Shown: piece by piece, positions 1 to 35,849 of the stretch
Layout: each line of letters begins with the position of its first letter
Numbering within the stretch: the first letter of the stretch is position 1
Assembly (NCBI RefSeq): GCF_003315615.1
Contig: NZ_PDCH01000016.1
Coordinates: 1 to 35,849 of the forward strand
Direction: 5' to 3'
Length of the DNA: 35,849 nucleotides
Source of the DNA: Bifidobacterium xylocopae
GTDB lineage: Bacteria; Actinomycetota; Actinomycetes; Actinomycetales; Bifidobacteriaceae
The notes under the pieces: model-generated
Seen by the model: the letters and a program-made list of their open reading frames with translations, nothing else
Told to the model about the DNA's origin: nothing
Databases searched by the model: none
Position numbers and translations under genes: made by a program

Positions 1-127
1 CCTCACACCTGCAGGGGTTAAAAAAGAGTCACAGCGCCAACCAGTCAAAACCGTTTACGGTAAAACCCTTGTCGGCTTAGTCGCGGTTGCTATAGTTTTC
101 TTCCTGGTCACAGCCGCAGCAGGTGCC
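1..127. repeat. Terminal direct repeat, left copy (assembly overlap of a circle)
   Basis: These 127 bases are identical to 35723-35849, and the gene at the right edge continues in frame into the left edge. This is what an assembler leaves when it linearises a circular molecule. The real length would be 35,722 bp and this copy is redundant. Confidence 0.93.
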
Positions 128-5483: not shown

Positions 5484-5520
5484 TGCCTTCCGGGATTTTT
5501 GTCCCGGAAGGCACTTTTTA
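5484..5520 (+). terminator. Strong rho-independent terminator
   Basis: A perfect 12-bp GC-rich stem (5484-5495 with 5502-5513) is followed by CTTTTTATT. No plus-strand gene lies just upstream, so it may end a short unannotated transcript, or shield the regulator gene from transcription entering from the adhesin promoter region. Confidence 0.8.
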
Positions 5521-5660
5521 TTCCACGCTGCCTATTCCTTCCTCGAAGAGGTAGTTTCCCACCTCCTCAACTTCCGGTTACAACCAGACAAGAAACCACT
5601 GTTTTGTGTTCACACCGACTTCAGGTCTTTCTGAATCGTATCACGAATCACTTACCAAAG

Positions 5661-8275: not shown

Positions 8276-8479
8276 ATGCCCATTGACCTTAAACATAAAG
8301 CTGAAATAAAACTAGCAGATACTCTTTCAGACAAAACAAGAAAATCAAAACCCACTGTAAGACGGATGAACCTCATCGTTCCAGAAGAAATCTATAAAAT
8401 ACTCGCGACGAAAAGAATTGATACCGGTAAATCTATGACAGCTCTGATCATTAATGCCATTGAAGAGTGCTATAAATAG
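8276..8479 (+). CDS. Ribbon-helix-helix DNA-binding protein, ParG-like partition partner
   Basis: A 67-residue basic protein. The N-terminal 27 residues are charged and probably flexible; residues 28-67 fit a ribbon-helix-helix: strand RRMNLIVP, helix EEIYKILATKRIDT, turn GKS, helix MTALIINAIEECYK. ParG-type proteins have this plan, bind a centromere and their own promoter, and stimulate the ParF ATPase through the flexible tail. The gene follows parA after an AT-rich dyad and has GTGAGGA upstream of its ATG. The nearby palindromes are the natural candidates for its binding sites. A role as a general repressor, without partition, is possible. Confidence 0.75.
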   Translation: MPIDLKHKAEIKLADTLSDKTRKSKPTVRRMNLIVPEEIYKILATKRIDTGKSMTALIINAIEECYK

Positions 8480-8564
8480 CCATCGTGCTTGCTACAGTTA
8501 AGCATGACACAAGATACTCGGTCTAAGATCCACCAATCATTCAAGCCGAGCATCGTACACCATA

Positions 8565-8574
8565 TAGTAGGTAA
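8565..8574 (+). promoter_or_regulatory. TAGTAGGTAA motif, copy 3, at the SSB-like gene
   Basis: The 10-mer ends 9 bases before the ATG at 8584 and runs into GGAA, so it overlaps the ribosome-binding region. The CATATAGT just before it could be a -10 element, which would give a very short leader. Confidence 0.5.
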
Positions 8575-8583
8575 GGAATACAC

Positions 8584-8850
8584 ATGGCATTCTATTGCGA
8601 CAAGATGACCTGGAAAGCAGGAAATCTCACCAAAGACCCATATTTTCGAACATACCCCGACGGCAACGAAACCGTCTATCTTTCTTTAGCCATAGACCAC
8701 GAAAAAGACAACACCGAATACCTGGAGCTCCAGGGGAGAGGCCAAATCAAAGAATATATACGCACCGAAACTTTCAAATCCGGCGACTTCGTAATCGCTG
8801 GCGGCACATTGGGAACCAGAAAAAACAGTCTCGCGAAGTACCAATCCTAA
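8584..8850 (+). CDS. SSB-like single-strand DNA-binding protein; may continue by -1 frameshift to 8933
   Basis: The 88-residue zero-frame product resembles the first part of a single-strand binding protein OB fold: GNLTKDPYFRTYPDG (13-27), YLSLAID, YLELQGRG, then KSGDFVIAGGTLGTRKN. The last strand of the fold is missing and the frame ends at TAA 8848. The missing part lies in the -1 frame (VPILRLAIISHETSLNYEIL, to TAG 8933). The change of frame coincides with A AAA AAC at 8820-8826, in the phase required for -1 ribosomal slippage; this would give 116 residues. A 6-bp stem (8828-8833 with 8870-8875) follows closely. The alternative is an ordinary indel in the A run. Either way the SSB assignment is by pattern only. 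Confidence 0.6.
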   Translation: MAFYCDKMTWKAGNLTKDPYFRTYPDGNETVYLSLAIDHEKDNTEYLELQGRGQIKEYIRTETFKSGDFVIAGGTLGTRKNSLAKYQS

Positions 8851-8967
8851 GGTTAGCAATAATAAGCCACGAGACAAGTCTCAATTATGAAATCCTCAAC
8901 TGGGATTATTTAAAAGCAGGTACAAGGAGGTAGACAACAAACACAATATCAGATGAAAGGTAATATC

Positions 8968-9288
8968 ATGGCAGAGCTATCCTATGTTGAATCGGTCCTT
9001 CTTGACCTGATCAAGAGTAGACTATCGCAAAATGCGGAGACCGAAGTGAAAACGTTCCTGGTGGAAATCCAAGGAAATAGAATTATCGGCGTCAGTGATG
9101 ACCTGATAAGCAGGGTGCAGGAAGATATAGAAAAAGACCCCTCCATAAGTGAGATACGAAAAGTATGGCAACGTGAGCGTGGGGGAGTCTATGCTGCTGA
9201 AGAGTTTGACCGAGCTATAGCAACCAGTATCGCCCACATCCTTTCTAACAAAGAGTTGTTAAAGGAGTTTGGCATCCTGTCCAACTAA
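8968..9288 (+). CDS. Hypothetical protein, 106 residues
   Basis: Not recognised. A predicted alpha/beta, acidic soluble protein with no membrane segment; it starts with a helix (AELSYVESVLLDLIKSRL) and ends in helices around DRAIATSIAHILSNKELLKEF. The start at 8968 is preferred to the ATG at 8953 because AAAGG lies 9 bases before it; the AAGGAGG at 8924-8930 is too far from either and sits at the end of the -1 frame of the SSB-like gene. Its place after the replication and partition genes suggests a maintenance role, which is a guess. Confidence 0.6.
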   Translation: MAELSYVESVLLDLIKSRLSQNAETEVKTFLVEIQGNRIIGVSDDLISRVQEDIEKDPSISEIRKVWQRERGGVYAAEEFDRAIATSIAHILSNKELLKEFGILSN

Positions 9289-9340
9289 CCGTTCATCTGG
9301 GAGGGACGGTGGGTAGGTTGCTGTTACAATGTATGAAAGC

Positions 9341-9397
9341 GTAAATACGTAAATACATATATAAATAAATAAGTAAACATGTATTTATGTATTTCTG
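9341..9397. promoter_or_regulatory. AT-rich inverted-repeat site upstream of the 9417 gene
   Basis: TAAATACAT (9350-9358) and ATGTATTTA (9379-9387) are opposed repeats, and TGTATTTATGTATTT (9380-9394) is identical to 7531-7545 before parA. AAGGAAG for the next gene follows at once. Probably the same class of protein site as at 7521-7560. Confidence 0.5.
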
Positions 9398-9416
9398 TTT
9401 TTAAGGAAGTAGAACC

Positions 9417-9872
9417 ATGCATACGGACAGGCAGAATATACAAAATATTGAGAAACAGGGCAGTATAAAGGCGAAAACTGCTAAAGCCTTTGCACTGCTT
9501 CTTATACTTGGCGTATTTGTCAGTGTAGGTTCACTATGGGTCGCCTATAGAAAATCGACTGCCTTACGCCGGTGTAACGAGGCATACGCACGGGCAGAAC
9601 GCGTAAAAAAAGCATATAGTAAAAAGCTGCACGGTGAAAAACTGCTTAGTGCTGAGCAAGTGCCAACAGGGCAGGTTACAGATCCTCAAACCGTGACAAA
9701 GTTGGCAGAACAAATCTTGTTAAAGCCTCCAGCCATACCTGCATGTGAAGCCGGTAGTGTCAATGCACTTAAAGAGCAATCTGCACGGCTTGAAGACAGC
9801 GCCAAATGGTTCACCAGCCACAATAAGGCGTTAGATAGTGCTGTGGTTAAGGCACTAACAAAATACTACTAG
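9417..9872 (+). CDS. Membrane-anchored protein, truncated paralogue of the 35430-865 gene product
   Basis: A 151-residue protein with a polar N-terminus, one membrane segment at about 25-44 (ALLLILGVFVSVGSLWVAY) and an outside helical part. The outside part aligns with the transfer-operon protein encoded over the circle join: both have Q.V.DP.T...L...........PAC followed by HNK.L....SAVV. Similarity ends at SAVV, where the other gene changes base composition and where this one stops after a few more codons, against a YcaO fragment. The two genes share the 13-mer TAGTGCTGTGGTT exactly there (442-454 and 9836-9848). It is therefore probably a 3'-truncated or recombinant copy, still with a good AAGGAAG ribosome site. 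Confidence 0.65.
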   Translation: MHTDRQNIQNIEKQGSIKAKTAKAFALLLILGVFVSVGSLWVAYRKSTALRRCNEAYARAERVKKAYSKKLHGEKLLSAEQVPTGQVTDPQTVTKLAEQILLKPPAIPACEAGSVNALKEQSARLEDSAKWFTSHNKALDSAVVKALTKYY

Positions 9873-14305: not shown

Positions 14306-16108
14306 TTAATTGTCTGTGGTTTGCTGGCTAATGGTCGGCATCTGTAGTAGTTCCCTATAAGCTGGGCTGGAAATCTTAAGTTCGTCATGCGTGCCGCATG
14401 CGACGATTTTGCCCTTTTCCATGACCAGTATTTGATCACCTGGCTCAATTGTTGACATTCTGTGAACTACTTCAATGACGGTTTGTTCGGAGAATATCTC
14501 GCGTAGTAGAGCATTTATCTTCTGTTGGTTGATTGAGTCGAGGCTTGACGTAGGCTCGTCTAAGAGAATGACAGGTTTTCTGTGCAGCAAAATCCTGGCG
14601 ATGGAAAGTCTCTGACGTTCTCCGCCGCTCAGGAAGTGGCCTTGTTCACCGACCTGCGTATTTAACTCTTGTTCGAGATTCCTAACTTTTGTATCAAGAT
14701 TGACGAGCTTGAGCGCATTCCAACATGTCTCATCGCTTGCTTCGATGGTTCCCATCGTTAGATTATCTCGAATACTACCGGAGAATATAGGAGCATCTTG
14801 TTCAATATAGCTAACTACTTTCCTGATATCGTTGGCATTTAAATCAGTTGAGTCAACATTGTTGTATAGGATATGCCCCGAATCCGGCCTATAAAAAGCC
14901 TCCAATAGGGAAAGCAGCGTAGTTTTACCTGAACCCGACGAGCCCACGATGACGGTTCTTTGGTGTGGGACTGCGCTAAAACTAATGTTCTGCAGAGTGG
15001 TATTTCGTTCATCATCTTTGTCCGCTGTATTGTAAGAAAAGCATACATCTTTGAACTCCAGCGTAATGTTGGCTGTATCAAACGAGGAATGCCCATCTGG
15101 GGAAAGCATATTGCTCGAACTTACGGTTTCGCTTTTATCGCGCAAAGATTCAATGTCTTCTATTCTCCTGAGTGGTCCTAAAGCTTTGAAAGCCGTGGTT
15201 ATAGATGAGGAAAAGGAGCTTAGCGAAGAAACAACCATAGTCAAATACATTGAAAAGGAGATGAAATTAGAAATATCAAGATCCCCTTTCGCTATTTCCG
15301 CGCCGCCAAAGGAAAAAACGATTAGTAAGGTCAGCTGTATGGCGCAGTTCACAATGGACCGAATGATTGTTTCCTTGTTGGCCACTTTTACTGTTGCCCG
15401 ATACACTTCTTCTGCGGTACCGACTACTCTTTTCGTTTCAGGCACTGTTGCCATAAAGGCCTTAATTGTGCGAATTCCAGCTAATGATCGCAGTATGGCA
15501 TTAGACAGTCTTGCTGTCTTAGCTTGTACCAGTTCGGTATAGGCCTGCAGACGAGAAGAAGCAGCAATCATCAACAGAATGGATGTGCACGAAGTTATAA
15601 GTGCCACGGCAAAGAGTCTGGTATCAATGAACAGCATAGCGACAGCTGATCCGCAAGCTGTTAACAGATTCGCGGCCACTTTAAAGAAGTCTGATGACAG
15701 GGCTGAGCGTAACTCATTAGTATCTGAGATGACAGTTGAGACATAGTCACCCGACTCCCTCTTATCATACTCTTGTACCGGCAGGCCGAGGATACAGGTA
15801 ATGAGATTGCTACGTTTATCGAAAACTATTTTCGCCGCAAGGCGGTTTGCCATATTGGATCCCAAACCATCCAGGACGATGCCTGCTACAAACAAAAGCG
15901 CCAAGACTGCAATTGGTCTCACCAACTTCTGACTCTGTTCTATGGCGTGTAGAAGATAATTGACACACAGAGGTTGTAGTAACGCCAGACCTGAAGACAC
16001 TATACCCACAGACATCACAACAACAGTGATAGCTGTGTGCGGTTTCAATAGTCTGAATACATTAAAAATTGTGGTTTTTTGACGTTGCTGAGTTTGCATA
16101 GTTGACAT
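14306..16108 (-). CDS. ABC exporter, fused membrane and ATPase domains
   Basis: A 600-residue type IV ABC half-transporter. Residues about 1-310 hold six membrane helices; the ATPase follows, with Walker A GSSGSGKTT (389-397), Q-loop near 437, signature LSGGERQRL (493-501), Walker B ILLDEPT (514-520) and switch His549. All catalytic residues are present. There is no N-terminal C39 peptidase, so it would not cut a leader itself. It is the last gene of a leftward operon of peptide, ATPase, FtsX-like permease and this exporter, starting 8 bases after the permease stop. Export of the 78-residue peptide or its product is a reasonable inference; drug or lipid export cannot be excluded. Confidence 0.88.
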   Translation of the reverse strand: MSTMQTQQRQKTTIFNVFRLLKPHTAITVVVMSVGIVSSGLALLQPLCVNYLLHAIEQSQKLVRPIAVLALLFVAGIVLDGLGSNMANRLAAKIVFDKRSNLITCILGLPVQEYDKRESGDYVSTVISDTNELRSALSSDFFKVAANLLTACGSAVAMLFIDTRLFAVALITSCTSILLMIAASSRLQAYTELVQAKTARLSNAILRSLAGIRTIKAFMATVPETKRVVGTAEEVYRATVKVANKETIIRSIVNCAIQLTLLIVFSFGGAEIAKGDLDISNFISFSMYLTMVVSSLSSFSSSITTAFKALGPLRRIEDIESLRDKSETVSSSNMLSPDGHSSFDTANITLEFKDVCFSYNTADKDDERNTTLQNISFSAVPHQRTVIVGSSGSGKTTLLSLLEAFYRPDSGHILYNNVDSTDLNANDIRKVVSYIEQDAPIFSGSIRDNLTMGTIEASDETCWNALKLVNLDTKVRNLEQELNTQVGEQGHFLSGGERQRLSIARILLHRKPVILLDEPTSSLDSINQQKINALLREIFSEQTVIEVVHRMSTIEPGDQILVMEKGKIVACGTHDELKISSPAYRELLQMPTISQQTTDN

Positions 16109-16116
16109 GATTTCCG

Positions 16117-17562
16117 CTATTCGCCTATGGCTGTTTGGACGGTTTCAATTGCCGATCGCTTCAAACTAGAACGTGCAGAGAAAAATGTGGAAAGTGTTCC
16201 CGCGGCGATAATGGGCACAGCAAGGATAATGAAGAACTTCCAGGGGAAGACCACTACAAAGAGATTCTTGGAAAGAGGGAGGAATGTCACAGCGGTGAAA
16301 ACTCCGACGAGCAAGGTGGCCCCCGCAGAGATAAGGATACCGGTGGTCACGAGGATGAAACCATCCAAGGCCGATATGGCAAGTAGCTGTCCGGGCACAG
16401 CGCCCGCGATGGAGATAAGGGCCAGATCAAGGTTGCGTTCCTTGGCAGAGATGGCGAAACTGGCGACCGCACCGATTACAGCAATGAGCAAGGCCGACCA
16501 CAGGCTGGACATAAGCTCTATCGGTGTGGCTGATCCCATGTCTTTCAACTGGGGAAAGCCACTTATGGCAGCAGTACTGGTTTGACCTGTGATTAACAAT
16601 CCACCGAGCAGGAACAGGCAAGCAGTCAGTGAGATGATGGTGGAGCCGAATGCCTTCCCGCGACTTCTCACAATGGCTTGTGCCCGTGCGATCTTCCAGA
16701 CATCGGATTGCACAGGAACCAGATTCGTCCATGTTTTGGTGGCCCATTGGATGATGGGTCCTCCAGAATAGGCCAGAGCGACCAGAAACAGCAGTATCGC
16801 GATGATCGGGCCTAATGACATGGGTTGCATGATGATGCCCAATTGGGTCTTACTCAGAGTTTTGGGGTCGTTCAACACCAGGATGACGGCAGCGACAGCC
16901 GGTGCCAGCAGGGCGATGAAACCACCGATAATAAGGAATCTCCTCAGACCGCGCCCAGCTCTCGTGACGTGGACTTCCTCAGTTCCTGAACCTCTCAGCA
17001 GCTCAACCGGAAGCACTTTCCTCAAAGCACGCAGAGTAAAGAGAGCACCCAACAAAGCCACAATGAAACCGACTGCAAGCCCCCTCAAAGCAAAGTCTAA
17101 GAAACCCTGCCAAGTAAAAGTGATAAGCGGCGGTAACAGCACGGCCTCCAACTGGAACTTTAGAATCCGTGGGGCAAGAATTGGCGCCAGCGCCATACCA
17201 ACGATGGAGGAGATCAGAGTCAGCACGAACACCTGCACCATGGTGAGGGTCAGCACCTGCCTAGGTGTGGCACCAAGCAGGGACAACAATGCAAGTCCCT
17301 TCCGCCGCTGCCTTATGGAAGCCTGAATCGTCACCATAATGACCAGGCAACCCAGGACCATTGCTATCTGGTAGACCGAGTCCACGTTAGTGCTGAGATG
17401 GTGAGATACCACACCCACTTCCCCCGGGGAATCATGTTTGAGATCATTGATTCCCTTGCATACACTCATGGCGCACAGAATCGTCTGCGTGACCACAAGC
17501 ACAAGAAACACACCGGCCCAGATTCCTCTATTGGCTTTCAGATCATTCAACGCCCACTTCAT
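16117..17562 (-). CDS. FtsX/MacB-like ABC permease
   Basis: A 481-residue membrane protein with about eight to ten helices in two similar halves. The first half has the FtsX pattern (ASIRQRRKGLALLSLLGATPRQVL, near 83-106); the second repeats it as SAKERNLDLALISIAGAVPGQLL. It pairs with the ATPase gene directly upstream (47-base gap), forming a complete two-component ABC unit. Actinobacterial pairs like this often give bacteriocin immunity or antimicrobial-peptide efflux. Large extracellular domains typical of BceB or MacB are absent, so the substrate is open. Confidence 0.85.
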   Translation of the reverse strand: MKWALNDLKANRGIWAGVFLVLVVTQTILCAMSVCKGINDLKHDSPGEVGVVSHHLSTNVDSVYQIAMVLGCLVIMVTIQASIRQRRKGLALLSLLGATPRQVLTLTMVQVFVLTLISSIVGMALAPILAPRILKFQLEAVLLPPLITFTWQGFLDFALRGLAVGFIVALLGALFTLRALRKVLPVELLRGSGTEEVHVTRAGRGLRRFLIIGGFIALLAPAVAAVILVLNDPKTLSKTQLGIIMQPMSLGPIIAILLFLVALAYSGGPIIQWATKTWTNLVPVQSDVWKIARAQAIVRSRGKAFGSTIISLTACLFLLGGLLITGQTSTAAISGFPQLKDMGSATPIELMSSLWSALLIAVIGAVASFAISAKERNLDLALISIAGAVPGQLLAISALDGFILVTTGILISAGATLLVGVFTAVTFLPLSKNLFVVVFPWKFFIILAVPIIAAGTLSTFFSARSSLKRSAIETVQTAIGE

Positions 17563-17609
17563 GACTTACACCTTTCACGCCGCATCGCCATACAGAATCA
17601 GGGCAATAA

Positions 17610-18323
17610 CTACGCTTGCTCTTCCACATTCCCTGATGCGACAAATCCGCCATCACTCATGGTGTATACGACGTCGCATTGCCGGGCCAGGCGGAGATCG
17701 TGTGTGACCACGACCACGCATTTACCGGGTCGATGGGAGAAGTCCCGCAACTGCGAGAAAACCAACTGTCCGGACTTCTGGTCAAGAGCACCTGTCGGCT
17801 CATCGGCGAACACAACATCGGGATCCGCGACCAAGGTGCGAATCAAGGATACCCGCTGCTGCTCACCACCTGAGAGCGAACTAGCTGCGTCATTGTCGTG
17901 CCCGCTCAAGTGGAACTTATCCATGAGGGCATCGATGCTTCCTTGATCGACCTTGCGATGGCTGAGAGTCAAGGGGAGCAGGATATTGTCACGAACGGTC
18001 ATGGACGGGACAAGATTGTAGGACTGAAACACAAACCCGATATGCGATCTGCGAAACAAAGCCAAGTTACGCTGGTTCTTCTTAGTTAGTTCCTCACCCA
18101 GCACCCACACATTTCCTTGAGATGGCTGTTCAAGACCAGAAAGGCAATATAGCAAGGTGCTCTTACCACATCCAGAGGGCCCTGTAATTGCGGTCATGGC
18201 ACCACCAGCAGCAACAAAAGAAAGATCATTGAACACCACAGTGGGAGTCCCGTCACCCGAGACGAAATTCTTACTTAGCTGTTCAGCTACTACCACACCA
18301 TCACGCATAATATTAACCTTCAT
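17610..18323 (-). CDS. ABC transporter ATPase, LolD/MacB type
   Basis: A 237-residue ATPase with Walker A GPSGCGKST (48-56), Q-loop FVFQSYNLVP (97-106), signature LSGGEQQR (150-157), Walker B VVFADEPTG (170-178) and VVTHD switch. The SYNLVP Q-loop and ADEPTGALD are typical of ATPases that drive FtsX-type permeases, matching the neighbour at 16117-17562. The gene begins 96 bases after the 78-residue peptide gene in the same direction. ATG at 18323 is taken; a second ATG at codon 6 is possible. No ribosome site is strong at either. Confidence 0.9.
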   Translation of the reverse strand: MKVNIMRDGVVVAEQLSKNFVSGDGTPTVVFNDLSFVAAGGAMTAITGPSGCGKSTLLYCLSGLEQPSQGNVWVLGEELTKKNQRNLALFRRSHIGFVFQSYNLVPSMTVRDNILLPLTLSHRKVDQGSIDALMDKFHLSGHDNDAASSLSGGEQQRVSLIRTLVADPDVVFADEPTGALDQKSGQLVFSQLRDFSHRPGKCVVVVTHDLRLARQCDVVYTMSDGGFVASGNVEEQA

Positions 18324-18419
18324 GGTACTGAGATCAGAGTATCGCCAGACCTCATGCGATTATAAAGCCCCACGACAACGAGTACTGAAATAAACGCTGT
18401 CATGGGGCGATATTCCTAT

Positions 18420-18656
18420 TTACCAACAACGGTACTGTACATCATAAGGCTTTCCTACAAAGTTCCGTGAGAAATACCAGAAGTTGCCCAATCTAACAGC
18501 AGGAGAAACAAACTCCTCCTTTTTGCGGTTTTGCTGTTCCAGGAATAGCTCTCTCTGAAGATCTTGAAGGTGCTCCATCCTTTTTTCAAATCTAACATTC
18601 TGAAGCAGGAGACATTCGGTGTCTCTTTCATTATTTCTCTGCGTTGCCTGATTCAT
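18420..18656 (-). CDS. 78-residue peptide ahead of ABC exporters; candidate secreted-peptide precursor
   Basis: Not recognised. The first 48 residues are hydrophilic and helical (NERDTECLLLQNV, then MEHLQDLQRELFLEQQ and KKEE); the last 30 are quite different, basic and aromatic (VRLGNFWYFSRNFVGK...VQYRCW), ending in Cys-Trp. This two-part plan, with a charged leader and a short contrasting tail, is that of a ribosomal peptide precursor. AAAGGA lies 10 bases before the ATG, and the gene is first in the leftward unit that encodes an ATPase/FtsX pair and an exporter. No signal peptide or double-Gly site is present, and the tail is poor in Cys/Ser/Thr, so it is not an obvious SagB substrate. It could instead be a small regulator. 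Confidence 0.55.
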   Translation of the reverse strand: MNQATQRNNERDTECLLLQNVRFEKRMEHLQDLQRELFLEQQNRKKEEFVSPAVRLGNFWYFSRNFVGKPYDVQYRCW

Positions 18657-18741
18657 ACTTAATAAGTCCTTTTAAAATGACCATGAGATGCATGATTCCA
18701 CGGCCTTTGCCCATCAGTTAGCTAATGCACCTACGTTGATA

Positions 18742-18775
18742 ATTATAGGCAAGCATCTACTGTCGCTATTGTCAA
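18742..18775 (-). promoter_or_regulatory. Possible promoter of the peptide/ABC operon
   Basis: On the minus strand TTGACA (18775-18770) and TATAAT (18747-18742) both match consensus, but the spacer is 22 bases instead of 16-18. Either the -10 works with another upstream element or an activator compensates. It is 86 bases before the peptide start. Confidence 0.4.
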
Positions 18776-18780
18776 GCTTT

Positions 18781-19077
18781 ACAGTCATCGGCTGTTGCCG
18801 ATGGCTGGTTGCCGCTGTCGCACGCCTGTGGCGTGCTGCTGGAGGGGTGTGAACGTGGGGGTTTGTGCCGCCCCCTTCCATTCTGGCCCAGGATCGCTAC
18901 GAGTCAAACCCCGAGCGTCTCGGCCCACACCCTTCCGGGTGGAGGGGTAGAACAGCATACCCCTTCACCCTCCAGGGAGTGTTCCGATCCACGCGAAGGT
19001 TTGACTCTCCGCTCAACCTGGGCCTCCATTCCAGGCGTCGGCACAAACCGGTACCGGCCCAAAGGAAAGGAACACCC
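18781..19077 (+). other. Long structured leader of the DUF4192-like gene
   Basis: This gene-free stretch folds repeatedly: CATCGGC with GCCGATG (near 18785-18802), GCACGCC with GGCGTGC (near 18820-18836), and GAGTCAAACC (18901-18910) with GGTTTGACTC (18998-19007), a 10-bp closing helix around inner C/G-rich hairpins. The ribosome site AAAGGAAAGGAA follows. It may be a cis-acting RNA or a DNA-level site; frames through it have no protein-like product. Confidence 0.45.
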
Positions 19078-19662
19078 ATGAACACCAACATCCCATCCCT
19101 AATCGCTGTTGACAACACCTTCCAGGCCACTGCGCGCAAGCTGTCCACTCACCACGACCTTGCCGCAAAGACAAGCAGGCAAACACTCGAAACCATTATG
19201 AGCATCCTCACCGGCACCCTCCAGGCCGTCAACCTGACCGATGACCAGCTCACCAACGTAGCCGCCCTCATAGAAACTTCCCTACAATACCGTGACGCTT
19301 TTCTTATCGCCTCTCTCAACCCTCAAGCCACTGAGGACGACCTGACCACCTGCACCGAACACCCACACAGCCAAGAAGCAATCCGCCTCATCACCGGCAC
19401 ATTGGACAAATTCTTCAACATCAAGGATTACACAGACCAGACTCGCGTCAACCGGGCCATACACTTGCTTGACCAGCTCACCCGCATTACCGGCATGACA
19501 CCACAACTATGCGCCACCCGCGCCTACCTAAGCTGGGCTAGCCACGATATCGAACAGACCAAACAATATGCCAGCATGACCGCAGAACTTGACAAAGAGA
19601 ACACCCTAGCTGCGTTGCTCTTGGCAGCCCTGCACCTCAACATCAACCCCAAAACCAAATAA
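19078..19662 (+). CDS. DUF4192-like protein
   Basis: 194 residues, all helical and soluble. The C-terminal part, CATRAYLSWASHDIEQTKQY then ENTLAALLLAALHL, matches the end of DUF4192 proteins of Actinobacteria, where A.L.W..GD..... is followed by a conserved leucine-rich helix. The rest is shorter than usual for the family (full-length members are often 300 or more), so this is a reduced form. Start chosen at 19078, after AAAGGAAAGGAA. Function of the family is unknown. It is first in a group of small plus-strand genes ahead of the mobilization genes. Confidence 0.55.
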   Translation: MNTNIPSLIAVDNTFQATARKLSTHHDLAAKTSRQTLETIMSILTGTLQAVNLTDDQLTNVAALIETSLQYRDAFLIASLNPQATEDDLTTCTEHPHSQEAIRLITGTLDKFFNIKDYTDQTRVNRAIHLLDQLTRITGMTPQLCATRAYLSWASHDIEQTKQYASMTAELDKENTLAALLLAALHLNINPKTK

Positions 19663-19670
19663 CCACTAAG

Positions 19671-19704
19671 ACGGTGTCCACGCTTCCACAAGCGTGGACA
19701 CCGT
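19671..19704 (+). other. Perfect 15-bp hairpin between two small genes
   Basis: ACGGTGTCCACGCTT (19671-19685) pairs exactly with 19690-19704 across CCAC. It lacks a T run, so it is not an ordinary terminator. It stands between the DUF4192-like gene and the next, and may be an RNA processing, stability or attenuation element. Confidence 0.6.
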
Positions 19705-19727
19705 CACACGGGAAGAAAGCACCATTC

Positions 19728-19955
19728 ATGAAGAACTACTACTTTTACATCACCGACGACCACCAGCAGGACGATTCCATCACCACCACCATTACCATCG
19801 CCCAGGCGAAACAGCAACCTTCTGGACAGGTAATGCGCGAGATAATAGCTACAAAGCAAATCCCCTTCGCCAACCAAGCAATACGCGAAGCCTACGATGC
19901 CGCCATCGCTTCGCACGCCCTGGAGGAAATACAAAGACTAGAGCACACCAGCTAA
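19728..19955 (+). CDS. Hypothetical protein, 75 residues
   Basis: Not recognised. The N-terminus YYFYITDDHQQDDSITTTITIAQA suggests a short beta-sheet, followed by a helix rich in Ala and Glu (QAIREAYDAAIASHALEEIQRL). Soluble and acidic. The ATG at 19728 is preferred over 19674 because the upstream part is taken by a perfect hairpin, and GGAAGAAAG precedes 19728. Small proteins of this look are common among accessory genes of conjugative elements. Confidence 0.6.
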   Translation: MKNYYFYITDDHQQDDSITTTITIAQAKQQPSGQVMREIIATKQIPFANQAIREAYDAAIASHALEEIQRLEHTS

Positions 19956-19962
19956 CAGCACT

Positions 19963-20060
19963 TGGCCCCGGCAGTCTGCCGGGGCCAGGCATTCGCCCTG
20001 TGCGTTTCTCGCGCCCCTCACGGGAGGGGCACTCGAAGCCGCCTCTTCCATGCGGAAGAC
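19963..20060 (+). ncRNA. Repeated structured RNA-like motif, copy A
   Basis: Three helices in a row: TGGCCCCGGCA with TGCCGGGGCCA (19963-19973 with 19977-19987), a conserved 50-base block (19993-20042) containing GCCCCT.CACG..AGGGGC, and CTTCC with GGAAG (20045-20058 area). The same block occurs at 21255-21304 with few changes, again between two hairpins that have unrelated sequences. Different sequence with the same pairing is the mark of a selected RNA structure. It lies directly after the 75-residue gene. Confidence 0.55.
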
Positions 20061-20163
20061 ACTACTAAGGACAGCCTACGGCTGCCTCCGCTCTCTGCAC
20101 GCGCTTCCCGCGAGCAGCATCCCCTTCCACCTTGACAGAGGCGGCGGAAGGGCAGGAAAAGGA

Positions 20164-20198
20164 GCAGGCTACGCCTGCCACACTTTCTTTTTCTTTTT
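20164..20198 (+). terminator. Rho-independent terminator
   Basis: GCAGGC and GCCTGC pair across TAC (20164-20178) and are followed by CTTTCTTTTTCTTTTTA. It would end transcription coming from the small genes and motif copy A. The preceding 20061-20163 has further short hairpins and no gene. Confidence 0.7.
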
Positions 20199-20232
20199 AC
20201 CCGTTGGCTTTCAGCCAGGATCATAGCGGCAC

Positions 20233-20294
20233 GTTCCAGGCGTCAACCCAGGAGCGTCGGACAAGCCGCCGCACGCTAGGTTGACTCCTGGAAC
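20233..20294 (+). other. Long imperfect hairpin in the leader of the 20359 gene
   Basis: GTTCCAGGCGTCAACC (20233-20248) pairs with 20279-20294 at 15 of 16 positions, enclosing a second helix AGCG.CGG/CCG..CGCT. It stands 65 bases before the next start codon, in place of the GTCAAACC/GGTTTGAC helix seen before the gene at 19078. A regulatory leader or protein-binding site is possible. Confidence 0.5.
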
Positions 20295-20358
20295 TCTTCG
20301 GCCGCTAACGCATTCGCTTGCCCACCGGGCAAAAAGAAAAAATGAAAGGGAAAACACC

Positions 20359-21189
20359 ATGACCACGATTATCGATGAGCAAGCAGCACGGCAAGCCAAC
20401 GAGGCCCTCAGCTTCAGCACCTATCAGGAAGGCAGCGAAACAGCGGCCTACACGGAAGAAGTGCAGCGTATCACCAGCCTGGCAGACCAGCGTAAAACAC
20501 AAATACCAGCCACCTTCTGGCCAGAACTTGACCAGCTTGTCTCACGCTACACCACCATACTGGCCAGCAGCATCAACGACTGGAACCGTCAGACAGCCCG
20601 AATACCTAGTGCGATGATAACCGGGCCGGCTAACTACCCAGTCACCCAAATGCAAAAACGAGCTGCCAGCAGACAAACGCAATGGGAGAACCACCGCCAG
20701 CAGTTAGAACGTATCGAAGCCGCTATCAGCTCGTGCGGCCACGCCATCAGCTCCACCAGGAACGACGCACTGGAACTCCTTACCGACAAACTACGAAAGC
20801 TGGAAGCCAAACAAGAACAGATGAAACAAGACAACGCAGCAGCACGAGCCTCCGGGCAAGATGCGCCCTACCCGTCATGCACCCTCACTAACAACAACGC
20901 GAACATACGACGTATCAGAAAACGTATTGAAACCATCAAGCAAACGCAGACGCTAGGCACACAAACCTGCAGTGGCTGCCTTGACACCGGCGACAACTAC
21001 ACCCTCACCCAAGATGGCGAAACCCAATACCTCTATTTCGTCTTCACCAACAAACCGACAGCAGAGACCAGAAACCTACTTAAACATGCCGGCTACCACT
21101 GGTCACCCCGCAACAACAGATGGCAACGCAAACTCACCGGCAACGCGCAAGCCACCACCCGACGTCTCATTCACAGCCACACCAAATAG
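20359..21189 (+). CDS. Mobile-element accessory protein with coiled coil and C-terminal GYHWSPRNNRWQR domain
   Basis: 276 residues. Residues about 20-170 are helical, including a charged coiled coil (LTDKLRKLEAKQEQMKQDNAAAR). A Cys-X2-Cys (CSGC) pair near 208 follows. The last 60 residues, YLYFVFTNKPTAETRNLLKHAGYHWSP...W.R.LT.NA, match a small domain found in many plasmid and conjugative-transposon proteins near antirestriction and transfer genes, which usually reads GFRW.P....W.R.L..NA. Its function is unknown. Start at 20359 has GAAAGGG upstream; the frame is open further back but runs through the long hairpin. Confidence 0.65.
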   Translation: MTTIIDEQAARQANEALSFSTYQEGSETAAYTEEVQRITSLADQRKTQIPATFWPELDQLVSRYTTILASSINDWNRQTARIPSAMITGPANYPVTQMQKRAASRQTQWENHRQQLERIEAAISSCGHAISSTRNDALELLTDKLRKLEAKQEQMKQDNAAARASGQDAPYPSCTLTNNNANIRRIRKRIETIKQTQTLGTQTCSGCLDTGDNYTLTQDGETQYLYFVFTNKPTAETRNLLKHAGYHWSPRNNRWQRKLTGNAQATTRRLIHSHTK

Positions 21190-21215
21190 TCGGCACCATA
21201 CATACGAAAGACGAC

Positions 21216-21322
21216 GGTCGCAGGCGTTACGTGGTGAGTAACGCCTGCGACCACTCGCCCTGTGCGTTTCTCGCGCCCCTACTGGGAGGGACACTCGAAG
21301 CCGCTGTATCCTCACGGATACA
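21216..21322 (+). ncRNA. Repeated structured RNA-like motif, copy B
   Basis: GGTCGCAGGCGTTA (21216-21229) pairs perfectly with 21239-21252; the conserved 50-base block follows at 21255-21304 (beginning TCGCCCTGTGCGTTTCTCGC, ending CACTCGAAGCCGC); then GTATCC with GGATAC (21306-21321). The plan equals copy A at 19963-20060, with flanking helices rewritten. It lies 26 bases after the 20359-21189 gene and points the same way. Confidence 0.55.
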
Positions 21323-21336
21323 CCAGCCGGCACACC

Positions 21337-21651
21337 TTAAGACACCTCACCCTGCAGGCCCTCACTCTCAGACACCACACCTGCAGTATCTACCGGCTCA
21401 ACTTTAGCTTTCAAGAACGTCTGCATCGCCTGAGGAATATTGAAATCACGATACAAGTCACTTTGTGACATATGATGATTCGATTTGAGCGACTCCATAC
21501 ACCGGCAAGCCTGTGCATGCGCCGTCTTCAACGCGGCAACAGCATTCTCTAACCCATCCAGATCCTTTTTCATCGCGGTCAAAGACTTCCTCCGCTCTTC
21601 CAGGATTCTAGCCGCCGCACCCGGCACCCGGTTCCTCGCATTAGTGGACAT
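21337..21651 (-). CDS. Small coiled-coil protein, hypothetical
   Basis: 104 residues, with a long helix (AARILEERRKSLTAMKKDLDGLENAVAALKTAHAQ, shown here in part) of clear heptad character over about 13-60, then a short tail (SQSDLYRDFNIPQAMQTFL). Not recognised. AAGGAG lies before the ATG, and the motif TAGTAGGTAA plus a perfect palindrome form its promoter region. It diverges from the mobilization genes across the probable oriT, so it could be an accessory oriT-binding or regulatory protein; that is inferred from position only. Confidence 0.55.
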   Translation of the reverse strand: MSTNARNRVPGAAARILEERRKSLTAMKKDLDGLENAVAALKTAHAQACRCMESLKSNHHMSQSDLYRDFNIPQAMQTFLKAKVEPVDTAGVVSESEGLQGEVS

Positions 21652-21661
21652 TACTTACTCC

Positions 21662-21690
21662 TTACCTACTAGTTGGTGGAACCACCAACT
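21662..21690 (-). promoter_or_regulatory. TAGTAGGTAA motif, copy 4, joined to a 20-bp palindrome
   Basis: TTACCTACTA (21662-21671) abuts AGTTGGTGG/CCACCAACT (21671-21690, 9-bp perfect arms, 2-base centre). On the minus strand the motif is 10 bases before the ATG of the coiled-coil gene. The palindrome upstream is a strong operator candidate. Confidence 0.55.
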
Positions 21691-21730
21691 CTAGTCGAAG
21701 TCAGTATGTTGTCAGCCTAGAAACAGTTAT

Positions 21731-21887
21731 CGCGCCAACGGCGCGACGTCATCTGGCGCAGCCAGATTCCGGAGGAAACGGAGTCTCCGACGGAGCAAGC
21801 TATAGCAATTGTGTACACAATTACGCTTCATCGCACGCTAGTGTGCGATAATAGAACCTACGGTTCGTCCCCAAACTTCGCTTGGGG
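21731..21887. other. oriT: Probable origin of transfer: tandem inverted repeats before mobC
   Basis: Six inverted repeats follow one another: CGCGCC/GGCGCG (21731-21745), ATCTGGC/GCCAGAT (21751-21767), the perfect AATTGTGTACACAATT (21807-21822), TCGCAC/GTGCGA (21831-21848), GAACC/GGTTC (21854-21866) and CCCCAA/TTGGGG (21869-21887). The stretch has no gene and lies directly before mobC and the relaxase, where oriT of such systems is usually found. The exact nick site cannot be read from sequence alone. Confidence 0.65.
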
Positions 21888-21920
21888 TCGCTGCGCTGGC
21901 CTAGAAGAAAGGAGGTCATC

Positions 21921-22346
21921 ATGGCTGAAAATACAGGTACTCCTGACACATCATCCCAAGGGCGCACCAATGATTTTCACATGCGATTAAGCGATGACGA
22001 AAAACGGAAACTCCTCCTTCGCGCCCATGAATGGTCTTCATCCCACAGCGTGGAATCCACTTCAACCGCTGGCCTCCTCTCCAAGTATGCCCGGGAATGC
22101 TTACTCGCTCCGCGCCAGGCAGACCAAGCGTTAACCCATGCGGACATACAGGATTTCAAACAGCAACTGAGCCGATTAGAAATACAGGTAGCTAAAGTGG
22201 GTGTGCTCATGAACCAGGTGGCCAGGGTTGCGAACACGAAAGGCATCATCCTCCACCACGATTTCAACCCACTGATCGGCAGTATGAAATCCGTAGTTGC
22301 GGACATCGATGACCTGATGCGTGAGATCTGGGAGCGGAACCGATGA
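21921..22346 (+). CDS. mobC: MobC-like relaxosome accessory protein
   Basis: 141 residues. The N-terminal half is a ribbon-helix-helix-like region (NDFHMRLSDDEKRKLLLRAHEW), and the C-terminal half contains the MobC signature LEIQVAKVGVLMNQVARVANT (about 86-106). MobC proteins bind oriT and help the relaxase reach the nick site. An ideal ribosome site (AAAGGAGG) lies 6 bases before the ATG. The stop overlaps the relaxase start (ATGA), so the two are translated together. Confidence 0.88.
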   Translation: MAENTGTPDTSSQGRTNDFHMRLSDDEKRKLLLRAHEWSSSHSVESTSTAGLLSKYARECLLAPRQADQALTHADIQDFKQQLSRLEIQVAKVGVLMNQVARVANTKGIILHHDFNPLIGSMKSVVADIDDLMREIWERNR

Positions 22347-23992
22347 TACCCAACATTACACGCGGCGACCGTATGAAAGGGCTCATCACCTATTTAGCCG
22401 GGCCAGGACGGCACAACGAACATCGAGACCAACATGTGGTGGCCGGTTCCAGCGAAGTGCAATTCCGCTTCAGTGACATCGATTTGGATAAGGCACAGAC
22501 CAGCGCCCTGGGTGCCTGCCTGGATACAGACTGGAAAACCAGTGACACCACTATGAAAGGTGGCCATGTCTGGCATTGCTCACTTGCCATCAGTCGAGAA
22601 GACGGAGTACTCAGCGACGACGAATGGCAGCAGATAGCCCACGAGTTCATCACGAAAATGGGCTTCGACGATGCCCAAGGAACCAAGGGAGAATGCCGGT
22701 GGGTGGCCATCAGGCACGGGTTGAGCGGTCACACGGGCACCGGCAACGACCATGTCCATTTAGCCGTCAACCTAATCAGGTCGGACGGCACCAAAGCCTG
22801 GATCCACCACGACTACCGACGTGCCCAGCAAGCTTGCCGAGAACTTGAACACCTTCACGGACTCGAAGAACTAGGCATCGAACGCACTAAAGCAGCCACA
22901 CGAGGATGGAAAGAAGGCGAGCGAGAAGCCCAGGCACGACGACGAGCCCGCGCGAAACTGCAAGCGGAATCACCCCAAGTGGACTGGGGTACCCTCCCGG
23001 TTCAAGAACGTAAACGACTCATAGCAGCTCAACTCGATCACGATCAACCCCGCTACCGGTTAGCCGTAACAATCCGCACCGCCGCAGCGCAAGCCACCAC
23101 TGAAGCTGAATTCATTAGGCGTCTACGCGGTCAAGGAATCCTGGTTCGGCCACGCTTCGCCAAAGGCTCAGACAGTGTAGTGACCGGATACAGCGTGGCC
23201 CACAAACCTCTATACGGAGAGTCACCAACCTGGTATGGCGCAGGCACCCTAGCCCGTGACCTGAGACTGCCACGGCTGCGCCAATATTGGCCAGACAGCA
23301 TTGCGGACAGTCAAGCGGCAACAGACGAATGGCAAGCCGCTTTCAAAGGACGCCGGGTGGCACACCCCCAGGTCAACGAACAGGTTCCACAACCTGAAGA
23401 AGTATCCGACGCAATCAGCAGGCTCAACCACAAGCTACGCTCAGTGCCCCTAGACGACCGGCAAGCATGGGCAAGCGTGGCGCATGAAGTATCCGGAGCG
23501 TTCGCTTCATGGTCACGAGCCGTGGAACAACAACCCGGACCCTTAGCTGACGCGGCAAGACAGCTCTCCCGCACAGCACAAACCTACCAGCGGCCAACAC
23601 GGTACGTCCCTGCAGCACACCACTGCATGATGAGCGCCGCCCTGGTGTTCTCCAGCATCGCCGCCGACAATAACGCTATGGCGCAAGCCATCCTGTACCG
23701 CCAGCTCTGGAAAACAGTAACAGCCATTCATGCAGCTATGGAAGCACGGCATGACGCTTACCAGGCCAGAATCCTCAAAGAAACCCAACAGACAAGCCTA
23801 ACAGCGGTCGCAGCATCACTGCCGGCAGTGAGCATCCAGAAGGATCAATCAACCAGCAAAACAGCCACACTGCCCCTCAGCCAGGACACACAACCCGGAC
23901 GCTTCACCCAGGCCACGCCAGAACAGTTCGGGGCAGCACCCATACCATATCGCCCACCCGCCACTCAAACACGAGGTGGACGTGAACGATAG
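22343..23992 (+). CDS. Conjugative relaxase (relaxase/mobilization nuclease, MOB-P-like)
   Basis: A 549-residue relaxase, which nicks oriT, stays joined to the 5' end through a tyrosine and pilots the strand into the recipient. GLITYLAGPGRHNEH (13-27) is the N-terminal signature common in actinobacterial relaxases; Tyr18 in it is a candidate nucleophile. HVWHCSLA (75-82) and the metal-binding HUH region HTGTGNDHVHLAVN (130-143) follow. The catalytic domain ends near 200; the rest is helical and basic, probably for contact with DNA, MobC and the coupling ATPase. Assignment to MOB-P is by motif shape and would need a profile search. Confidence 0.92.
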   Translation: MIPNITRGDRMKGLITYLAGPGRHNEHRDQHVVAGSSEVQFRFSDIDLDKAQTSALGACLDTDWKTSDTTMKGGHVWHCSLAISREDGVLSDDEWQQIAHEFITKMGFDDAQGTKGECRWVAIRHGLSGHTGTGNDHVHLAVNLIRSDGTKAWIHHDYRRAQQACRELEHLHGLEELGIERTKAATRGWKEGEREAQARRRARAKLQAESPQVDWGTLPVQERKRLIAAQLDHDQPRYRLAVTIRTAAAQATTEAEFIRRLRGQGILVRPRFAKGSDSVVTGYSVAHKPLYGESPTWYGAGTLARDLRLPRLRQYWPDSIADSQAATDEWQAAFKGRRVAHPQVNEQVPQPEEVSDAISRLNHKLRSVPLDDRQAWASVAHEVSGAFASWSRAVEQQPGPLADAARQLSRTAQTYQRPTRYVPAAHHCMMSAALVFSSIAADNNAMAQAILYRQLWKTVTAIHAAMEARHDAYQARILKETQQTSLTAVAASLPAVSIQKDQSTSKTATLPLSQDTQPGRFTQATPEQFGAAPIPYRPPATQTRGGRER

Positions 23993-24073
23993 ATAAGGAG
24001 GTCAACCGCGTCAGCTTGGAGCGCCATTCATCCAAGCATCATGTCAGCCAAGAGGCATGAAACTCATACAACA

Positions 24074-35433: not shown

Positions 35434-35849
35434 AACAAAACGACAAGCGCGATTCAGCCACAGTTATTTTGACCCAGAATTCAGGACGCATCACTTTCCA
35501 CGACAGCACCATCACCCTGACCGGCACCACCCTAGCCACGTTGAGAGCAGAAACGAAAAAGACCCTCAGAAATATGGCCCGGCTCCGCCGCACCTCAATA
35601 CAAGTAGCCGTTAATGATCCAAGCGGACAATGGCACCTCATCATCAGCCCAGATGGCAGCATCCATGAGGAGCCACCACAGGGGCAACCCCACCACGAAA
35701 CAACAGCACAGAAGCAAAACGACCTCACACCTGCAGGGGTTAAAAAAGAGTCACAGCGCCAACCAGTCAAAACCGTTTACGGTAAAACCCTTGTCGGCTT
35801 AGTCGCGGTTGCTATAGTTTTCTTCCTGGTCACAGCCGCAGCAGGTGCC
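35430..35849 (+). CDS. Conjugation-associated single-pass membrane protein, 5' part (continues at position 2)
   Basis: Start of the 385-residue protein whose rest is encoded at 2-865. Residues 1-80 form a beta-rich domain (SATVILTQNSGRITF, then GQWHLIISPDGS); a Gln/His-rich linker and the membrane helix 120-141 follow. The ATG overlaps the stop of the lipoprotein gene. Bases from 35723 repeat positions 1-127, so the coding is cut only by linearisation. Confidence 0.85.
   Translation, partial: MKQNDKRDSATVILTQNSGRITFHDSTITLTGTTLATLRAETKKTLRNMARLRRTSIQVAVNDPSGQWHLIISPDGSIHEEPPQGQPHHETTAQKQNDLTPAGVKKESQRQPVKTVYGKTLVGLVAVAIVFFLVTAAAGA
35723..35849. repeat. Terminal direct repeat, right copy (assembly overlap)
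   Basis: Identical to 1-127. See the left copy; together they show circularity rather than a biological repeat. Confidence 0.93.

Follow-up and report, generated by a model that had tools for sequence, protein, structure and literature searches.

What is known of how genes are read from transferred DNA that is not yet double-stranded comes mainly from F-like plasmids of E. coli. The Frpo element of F is reportedly both a promoter and a primer site, to go by the title under which work of Masai and Arai from 1997 is cited. As far as the accessible text of the sources goes, leading-region genes use the transferred strand as template (PMC11541004), and Frpo is, beside the EGeRS1 regions of plasmid pLS20, the nearest precedent for the element described here (PMC9849209, PMC11541004). 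According to the available part of its description, EGeRS1-B of pLS20 is an intergenic region with several hairpins that precedes establishment genes. It kept transcription that had started at an upstream promoter from reading through, but only when it stood in its native orientation; the EGeRS1 regions themselves lack promoters, and in pLS20 it is the non-template strand that is transferred (PMC8708921). The five EGeRS1 regions of pLS20 represent another solution to the expression of genes from transferred DNA. The element that we describe here from bifidobacteria is real and conserved. It matches no Rfam family, and a description of it was not met in the accessible literature, the coverage of which was thin for subscription papers.

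Two copies of a structured element in the window

The stretch of DNA analyzed, hereafter the window, comprises 35,849 nt and is one contig of a 1.85-Mb genome. Its ends overlap by 127 bases (window 1–127 = 35723–35849), which implies that the contig is a circular plasmid of ~35.7 kb, and its genes include those for a RepA_C replication protein, a MobA/VirD2-type relaxase and a VirD4-like coupling protein. The ABC-transporter genes of the window (14306–18323) recur beside the element in another locus (L058, 6801–9565) with identical protein starts, as cargo common to plasmid and chromosome.

The element consists of an upstream hairpin (HP1), a core made up of an outer helix (P1) and an inner hairpin (P2), and a small downstream hairpin (P3). 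In copy 1, a perfect HP1 of 12 bp (19963–19987) precedes the plus-strand core (19993–20042, with P2 at 20013–20030) and a P3 of 6 bp (20044–20059). Copy 2 is built likewise from a perfect HP1 of 15 bp (21216–21252), a plus-strand core (21255–21304) whose P2 (21275–21292) contains one C-A mismatch on the plus strand, and a P3 of 7 bp (21305–21322). The near-identical 50-base blocks reported by the first-pass annotation are present, with 46 of 50 bases the same (BLAST: 91% over 53 bases), and each does stand between a strong upstream and a small downstream hairpin of unrelated sequence. The upstream hairpins proved to be perfect, while their sizes had been given as 11 and 14 instead of 12 and 15 bp, and those of the downstream hairpins as 5 and 6 instead of 6 and 7 bp.

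A two-part pattern of the motif occurs twice in the window, whereas 100 dinucleotide shuffles contain it 0.00 times on average. Both copy regions fold better than all of 200 shuffles, with z-scores of -3.85 (copy 1) and -4.85 (copy 2) as RNA and of -5.28 to -5.59 as DNA on either strand. With the flanks included, the plus-strand folds of the two copies differ, and without them the two cores have like folds on either strand. Covariation is thin from the two window copies alone, and the relatives described below supply the rest.

Comparison with known classes gave no identity for the element. Neither the window nor 10 related loci matched any Rfam 15 family at its gathering score (0 matches), none of the weak matches in 18700–21950 was credible and the best one lay away from the cores; a known RNA family was rejected on this ground, in agreement with the earlier remark that no named class fits. 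Hairpin, twister, pistol and other small ribozymes were considered and dropped, their models being covered via Rfam only, and no integron attC boxes (R/L boxes) were noticed by eye. Neither HP1 has a T run behind it, so that the arrangement of an intrinsic terminator, a G+C-rich hairpin directly followed by such a run, is found at neither copy, and a terminator scan of 18300–24000 called neither on the plus strand. The core contains no promoter-like -35/-10 hexamers, nor was a plus-strand promoter-like site found anywhere in 18300–24000; lacking hexamers and sitting behind genes, the core does not resemble an Frpo-type single-stranded DNA promoter.

The core is conserved within Bifidobacteriaceae

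We searched 189 Bifidobacteriaceae genomes with two covariance models, R1 built from 5 and R2 from 11 distinct sequences. R2 located the core at 19 places in 16 of the genomes with E ≤1.7e-9, source sequences of R2 matching by construction, and the next match had an E value of 0.0075. Independent of this construction is the recovery by R1 of L030, L031, L032, L049, L050 and, weakly, L035, and the loci recovered in this way again carry the flanking hairpin architecture. Weak family matches (E >0.007 with R2; <30 bits with R1) were inspected and dropped except for L035/L036, whose E value of 1.7e-9 with R2 is partly by construction because R2 contains L035. The named records with close relatives belong to Bifidobacterium asteroides (3 strains), B. 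mellis and B. aquikefiri, which places the host of the window in Bifidobacterium or very near it.

Among 396 sampled genomes of the order, the only strong matches came from four members of the window's genus, and three further matches (E 6e-4 to 3e-3) were judged by their sequence to be chance. The window copy found no match in plasmids or phages, leaders A and B (see below) and the L032 core none in plasmids, and two patterns none in viral contigs. A looser pattern led to one viral contig (L060), where the match fell into unrelated coding DNA and was put down to chance.

The 11 distinct cores have RTGC-GTTTYTCS before P2 and ACTCRAAKCC after P2 in common, and P2 itself is rewritten. Cores are alike within one carrying element, as in the window, and different between such elements, and HP1 differs from gene to gene.

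Inner and outer helices covary without a clear strand preference

Over the 12 pairs of P1 and P2 in the 11 distinct cores, 88.6% of the cells are paired, compared with 80.8% in shuffles and at most 53.0% when the alignment is slid. The covariation score of 0.205 was reached by 0 of 500 shuffles. Five measures of covariation were used, two of which are weak: the number of pairs changed on both sides was 4 versus 2.2 (43 of 500 shuffles reach 4) and that of further pair types 6 versus 4.8 (the observed value being reached by 103 of 500). Compensatory changes are seen at columns 22-38 (C-G to G-C), 20-40 (G-C to C-G) and 15-45 (C-G to U-A). Selection on structure, as proposed by the first-pass annotation from two copies, is thus supported, since P1 and P2 both covary across the 11 distinct sequences.

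We further compared the flanking arms with random segments of the same loci, bearing in mind that the 11 distinct cores are interrelated and that related sequences are counted more than once in these tallies. An upstream arm of at least 10 perfect pairs is present in 9 of the 11 (random 65-mers: 63 of 4000), the exceptions being L050 with 8 perfect pairs and L035 with only 6. Downstream, at least 5 perfect pairs are found in 5 of the 11 cores (random 28-mers: 385 of 4000) and at least 4 pairs in 8, with the hairpin absent in L031 and L050 and doubtful in L032. The expectation that the flanking helices pair in further copies therefore holds for the upstream arm in these 9 cores and fails for the downstream hairpin in two relatives.

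It had also been proposed that the motif acts as RNA, and on this point the pair counts favour neither strand, since the choice of pairs decides whether plus or minus comes out ahead. Over 12 pairs, the plus strand leads (88.6% versus 84.8%) because a U-G pair of invariant type (columns 12-48) reads A-C on the minus strand. With 14 pairs, the minus strand leads (85.1% versus 81.2%). With RNA parameters, 10 of 11 cores fold more stably as the minus strand, and with DNA parameters 7 of 11 do. Among 343 hand-read pairs of the HP1, P2 and P3 arms, 3 are G-U and 8 A-C on the plus strand; these cases are few and interrelated, and the loci contain only one tRNA, too few for a yardstick of the G-U frequency. 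Deamination of a single-stranded transferred strand could also yield such an A-C/G-U bias without selection.

The element follows genes and alternates with structured leaders

In the window, both copies lie at the end of gene units ahead of the mobilization region. The first unit contains a plus-strand gene for a 194-aa protein of unknown family (19078–19662), a relative of which precedes the element in B. asteroides-type loci (L008/L058), and is closed by a plus-strand gene for a 75-aa protein without a Pfam or NCBIfam match (19728–19955). A perfect 16-bp hairpin with no core behind it lies between these two genes (19670–19705). The second unit contains a plus-strand gene for a 276-aa protein (20359–21189) with 32% identity to plasmid proteins annotated YodL/DUF4316. 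Between copy 2 and the oriT candidate described below lies a convergent minus-strand gene for a 104-aa protein (21337–21651), and minus-strand genes of like size occupy the equivalent position in L049, L050 and L051. It is followed on the plus strand by a mobC-like gene (21921–22346), named from its position and the annotation of relaxase relatives, and by the relaxase gene (22343–23992; Pfam Relaxase, MobA/VirD2).

We examined 17 element places, 12 of the close type and 5 of the distant type introduced below. At 16 of them, a same-strand ORF of at least 93 aa stops no more than 130 nt before the element, with HP1 lying 7 to ~60 nt behind the stop codon, so that the position behind small plus-strand genes and ahead of the mobilization region described by the first-pass annotation holds; the exception, L050, has its element behind a decayed gene. 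The preceding genes vary and include the 194-aa family in B. asteroides-type loci, LPD28 in L052 and a coiled-coil protein in the L056 class, and those in the window (75 and 276 aa) are unrelated to each other. Leader B comes next behind the element at 7 of the 17 places. The remaining places have a further or a convergent gene there, which in L031 starts ~40 nt behind the core. Toward oriT, a convergent gene of 100 to 126 aa, then mobC and the relaxase gene follow. Loci with two quite different relaxases (L049, L050 versus L051, L056) have the core in common, and among the loci inspected the element is confined to a plasmid/ICE context.

Two families of structured 5′ leaders, which we call A and B, stand ahead of the same genes and alternate with the element. 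Leader A, found by a seed search and an alignment of 8 copies, is a long inverted repeat on the plus strand (18868–19040, ends approximate) 5′ of the gene at 19078–19662, and its right arm contains TTGACTCTCCGC. Leader B (20184–20341, plus strand; seed search and alignment) is a long hairpin closed by TTTTTCTTTTT and AAAAAGAAAAA with TTGACT in its right arm. Just 5′ of it, a small G+C hairpin followed by a T-rich run (20164–20178) looks terminator-like on the plus strand by eye. In both leaders a TTGAC-like hexamer lies inside the right arm, paired with the left arm, and no clear -10 hexamer is seen. At E ≤0.001, leader B has matches in 24 of 189 family genomes, of which 18 reach ≤1e-10, the window's own scores 7.1e-6 and 5 are weak, short candidate matches; up to four copies per element lie within 5 kb. 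Across 25 distinct copies, 432 of 450 cells of its consensus helix form Watson-Crick pairs and the others comprise 5 G-T, 6 A-C and 7 of other kinds, and in several pairs both partners have changed. An AAC/AAC internal loop is kept in nearly all copies and reads GTT/GTT on the minus strand, that is G-T, T-T and T-G. In L058, from a B. asteroides-type genome, two leader A copies 2.6 kb apart (2872–2945 and 5495–5568) are identical over the stretch shown and precede a ParB-like gene and a 186-aa gene.

Ahead of leader B we also recognized a distant type of the element with the order HP1, P2 plus (A)ACTC, P3 in other letters, located in L120 (three copies), L126, L124 and L127; distant-type copies were seen in L119 by eye. 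The three copies of L120 possess an identical P2 and different HP1. A shape search for P2 + ACTC + P1 on both strands of 26 loci gave 19 matches, 7 of which lie ahead of leader B as expected (L082, L120 three times, L124, L126, L127), and the other 12 look like chance. Since triplet-shuffled copies of 13 loci, run twice, gave 6 matches, the number alone is weak and the placement is the argument; the search recovered neither window copy.

A candidate oriT suggests that the element region enters first

Between the convergent gene and mobC lies a candidate oriT on the minus strand (21794–21822), composed of the inverted repeat AATTGTGTACACAATT (21807–21822) followed by GCTTGCT (21794–21800). In 10 of 11 oriented loci, GCTTGCT stands exactly once behind an inverted repeat of at least 8 pairs, each time on the minus strand; these loci are partly near copies and amount to about five distinct nic-like sites. 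The eleventh, L054, is truncated by a contig end and lacks such a site. As a control, 29 of 123 GCTTGCT sites in other loci have a preceding repeat of at least 7 pairs, which is a poor control because many of these loci overlap the 11. A second contig of the same genome (G000:C13, L081) encodes a relaxase 62% identical to that of the window and has its own GCTTGCT site.

A nic core GCTTG/C (the slash marks the nick) is listed for Tn1549 (RYGCTTG/C) and pRJ6 (TGCTTG/CCA) in the accessible part of the source (PMC7755788), and the window's nic-like site, TAGCTTGC, does not fit the RY of the Tn1549 core. If GCTTGC is nic, the minus strand would be transferred, the element region would enter first and the plus-strand genes would be templated by the transferred strand. 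The candidate nic hence suggests that the genes bearing the element lie in the leading region with the transferred strand as their template. In L051, a gene for a UmuC-type polymerase (Pfam IMS, 8290–9591) lies inside this presumed leading region.

An inverted repeat together with GGTCGCTGCGCTGGC just 5′ of mobC (21847–21900), common to five loci with close relaxases, was at first taken for the nic region and would imply the opposite direction. We preferred GCTTGC by choice, since it is a listed nic core and is present in loci of both relaxase types. The core itself was rejected as oriT, given its presence in loci whose relaxases differ and the existence of a nic-like site apart from it. As the elements are intergenic in a probable leading region and the transferred strand would be the minus strand, single-stranded DNA is as good a candidate for the selected molecule as RNA.

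Discussion

With somewhat less than even confidence, we propose that the element serves as punctuation between gene units of the leading region by stopping RNA polymerase, perhaps on single-stranded DNA. A unit in the region next to oriT would comprise a structured leader, one or more genes and then HP1, core and P3 as its close. At the end of the unit the element would stop or block the polymerase and so keep it out of the next folded leader and of oriT. In favour of this reading are the conserved and covarying core, its place behind genes, its alternation with the leaders, the nic-like site on the minus strand and the precedent of EGeRS1-B. Since it is apparently the minus strand that is transferred, and this is the template of these genes, the element might act on the incoming single strand, where it would fold as hairpins in the template; once the DNA is double-stranded, it might also act as a hairpin terminator in the RNA. 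A fuller version of this proposal appears unlikely to us, namely that leading-region genes are run off the incoming single strand by the folded leaders A and B, and that HP1-core-P3 is a terminator or roadblock on the single-stranded template, sparing the next folded promoter and the relaxase-bound end; an end signal specific to single-stranded DNA was not met in the part of the literature accessible to us. Several observations speak against the element as punctuation. HP1 lacks a T run and the terminator scan is silent at both copies, while a separate terminator-like hairpin with a T-rich run stands further 3′ of copy 1. An efficient terminator would silence the L031 gene close behind the core unless this has its own start, G000:C13 has no element core on the 12-kb piece searched despite its related relaxase, and the pLS20 precedent, as far as its available description goes, has the opposite strand relation.

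The element might instead be an RNA element of the 3′ UTR, by which the folded transcript would be stabilized, processed or bound by a protein, so that transfer would be irrelevant. Its place on the sense strand behind a gene at 16 of 17 places and the 12-pair count are in line with this, but two added pairs reverse the order of the strands, the minus-strand core is the more stable one in most cores with either parameter set, G-U pairs are rarer than A-C pairs on the plus strand (3 versus 8 of 343) and the element was found only in a plasmid/ICE context among the loci inspected, and we consider this explanation rather unlikely. The inferred leading-region position and the minus strand as transferred strand would equally suit a single-strand initiation site of the ssi/Frpo kind, at which primase, primosome or polymerase would be loaded onto the folded transferred strand for synthesis of the complementary strand. 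Perfect hairpins with conserved unpaired bases would be appropriate for protein-bound single-stranded DNA, and Frpo, as far as the accessible sources describe it, offers a precedent as promoter and primer site. Against this, the core has no promoter-like hexamers, leaders A and B are the better candidates, and a single site would suffice, whereas the elements are tied to the ends of genes; such a role is quite improbable in our view.

We assign still less weight to a boundary for the shuffling of cassettes, at which repeated cores and leaders recombine and units are gained and lost. That cores are alike within and unlike between the carrying elements (as seen for the 46 identical bases in the window and the thrice repeated P2 of L120) with a variable HP1, and that the preceding genes in the window are unrelated, would be explained by it. 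Homologous recombination, however, needs no such structure, and attC boxes were not noticed by eye. Finally, the highly conserved strands of the core and the adjoining mob genes might point to a binding site in double-stranded DNA for MobC, the relaxase or a regulator. This we regard as very improbable, the core being common to two quite different relaxases and the changes in P2 being compensatory, which a duplex site does not need.

If the element does act as punctuation between leading-region units, the separation of transcription units on a single-stranded template becomes testable, and the bifidobacterial family offers, in harmless bacteria, many natural variants in which elements that begin and end a unit alternate regularly. 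Leader B, the core and the nic-like site would then provide a sequence handle for establishment and possible anti-defence genes in Actinomycetota, of which we found none described in the accessible literature.

Among known systems, intrinsic terminators resemble the element in that HP1 is a strong hairpin shortly behind a stop codon; they differ in the T run that HP1 lacks and in the conserved core and third hairpin that come next here. The Frpo/ssi single-stranded DNA promoters of F and ColIb-P9 are likewise folded, repeated elements of the leading region with genes templated by the transferred strand, and the right arms of leaders A and B with their TTGAC-like hexamers paired to the left arm are akin to them. 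The core, in contrast, has no such hexamers and sits behind genes, and without a convincing -10 hexamer the promoter role of the leaders is putative. The EGeRS1 regions of the pLS20 family, according to the available part of their description, likewise lie between genes in several copies, are rich in G+C, form several hairpins and go with the establishment genes of a conjugative plasmid. In them, two stem-loops precede a larger conserved branch (PMC8708921), much as HP1-core-P3 precedes leader B. They belong to Bacillota, and the likeness is one of structure and context, drawn from the description rather than from sequence. The name EGeRS1 furthermore refers to what precedes a gene, whereas the core described here also closes units that have no leader behind them, as in copy 2, and the transferred strand of pLS20 is described as the non-template strand, whereas here it would be the template.
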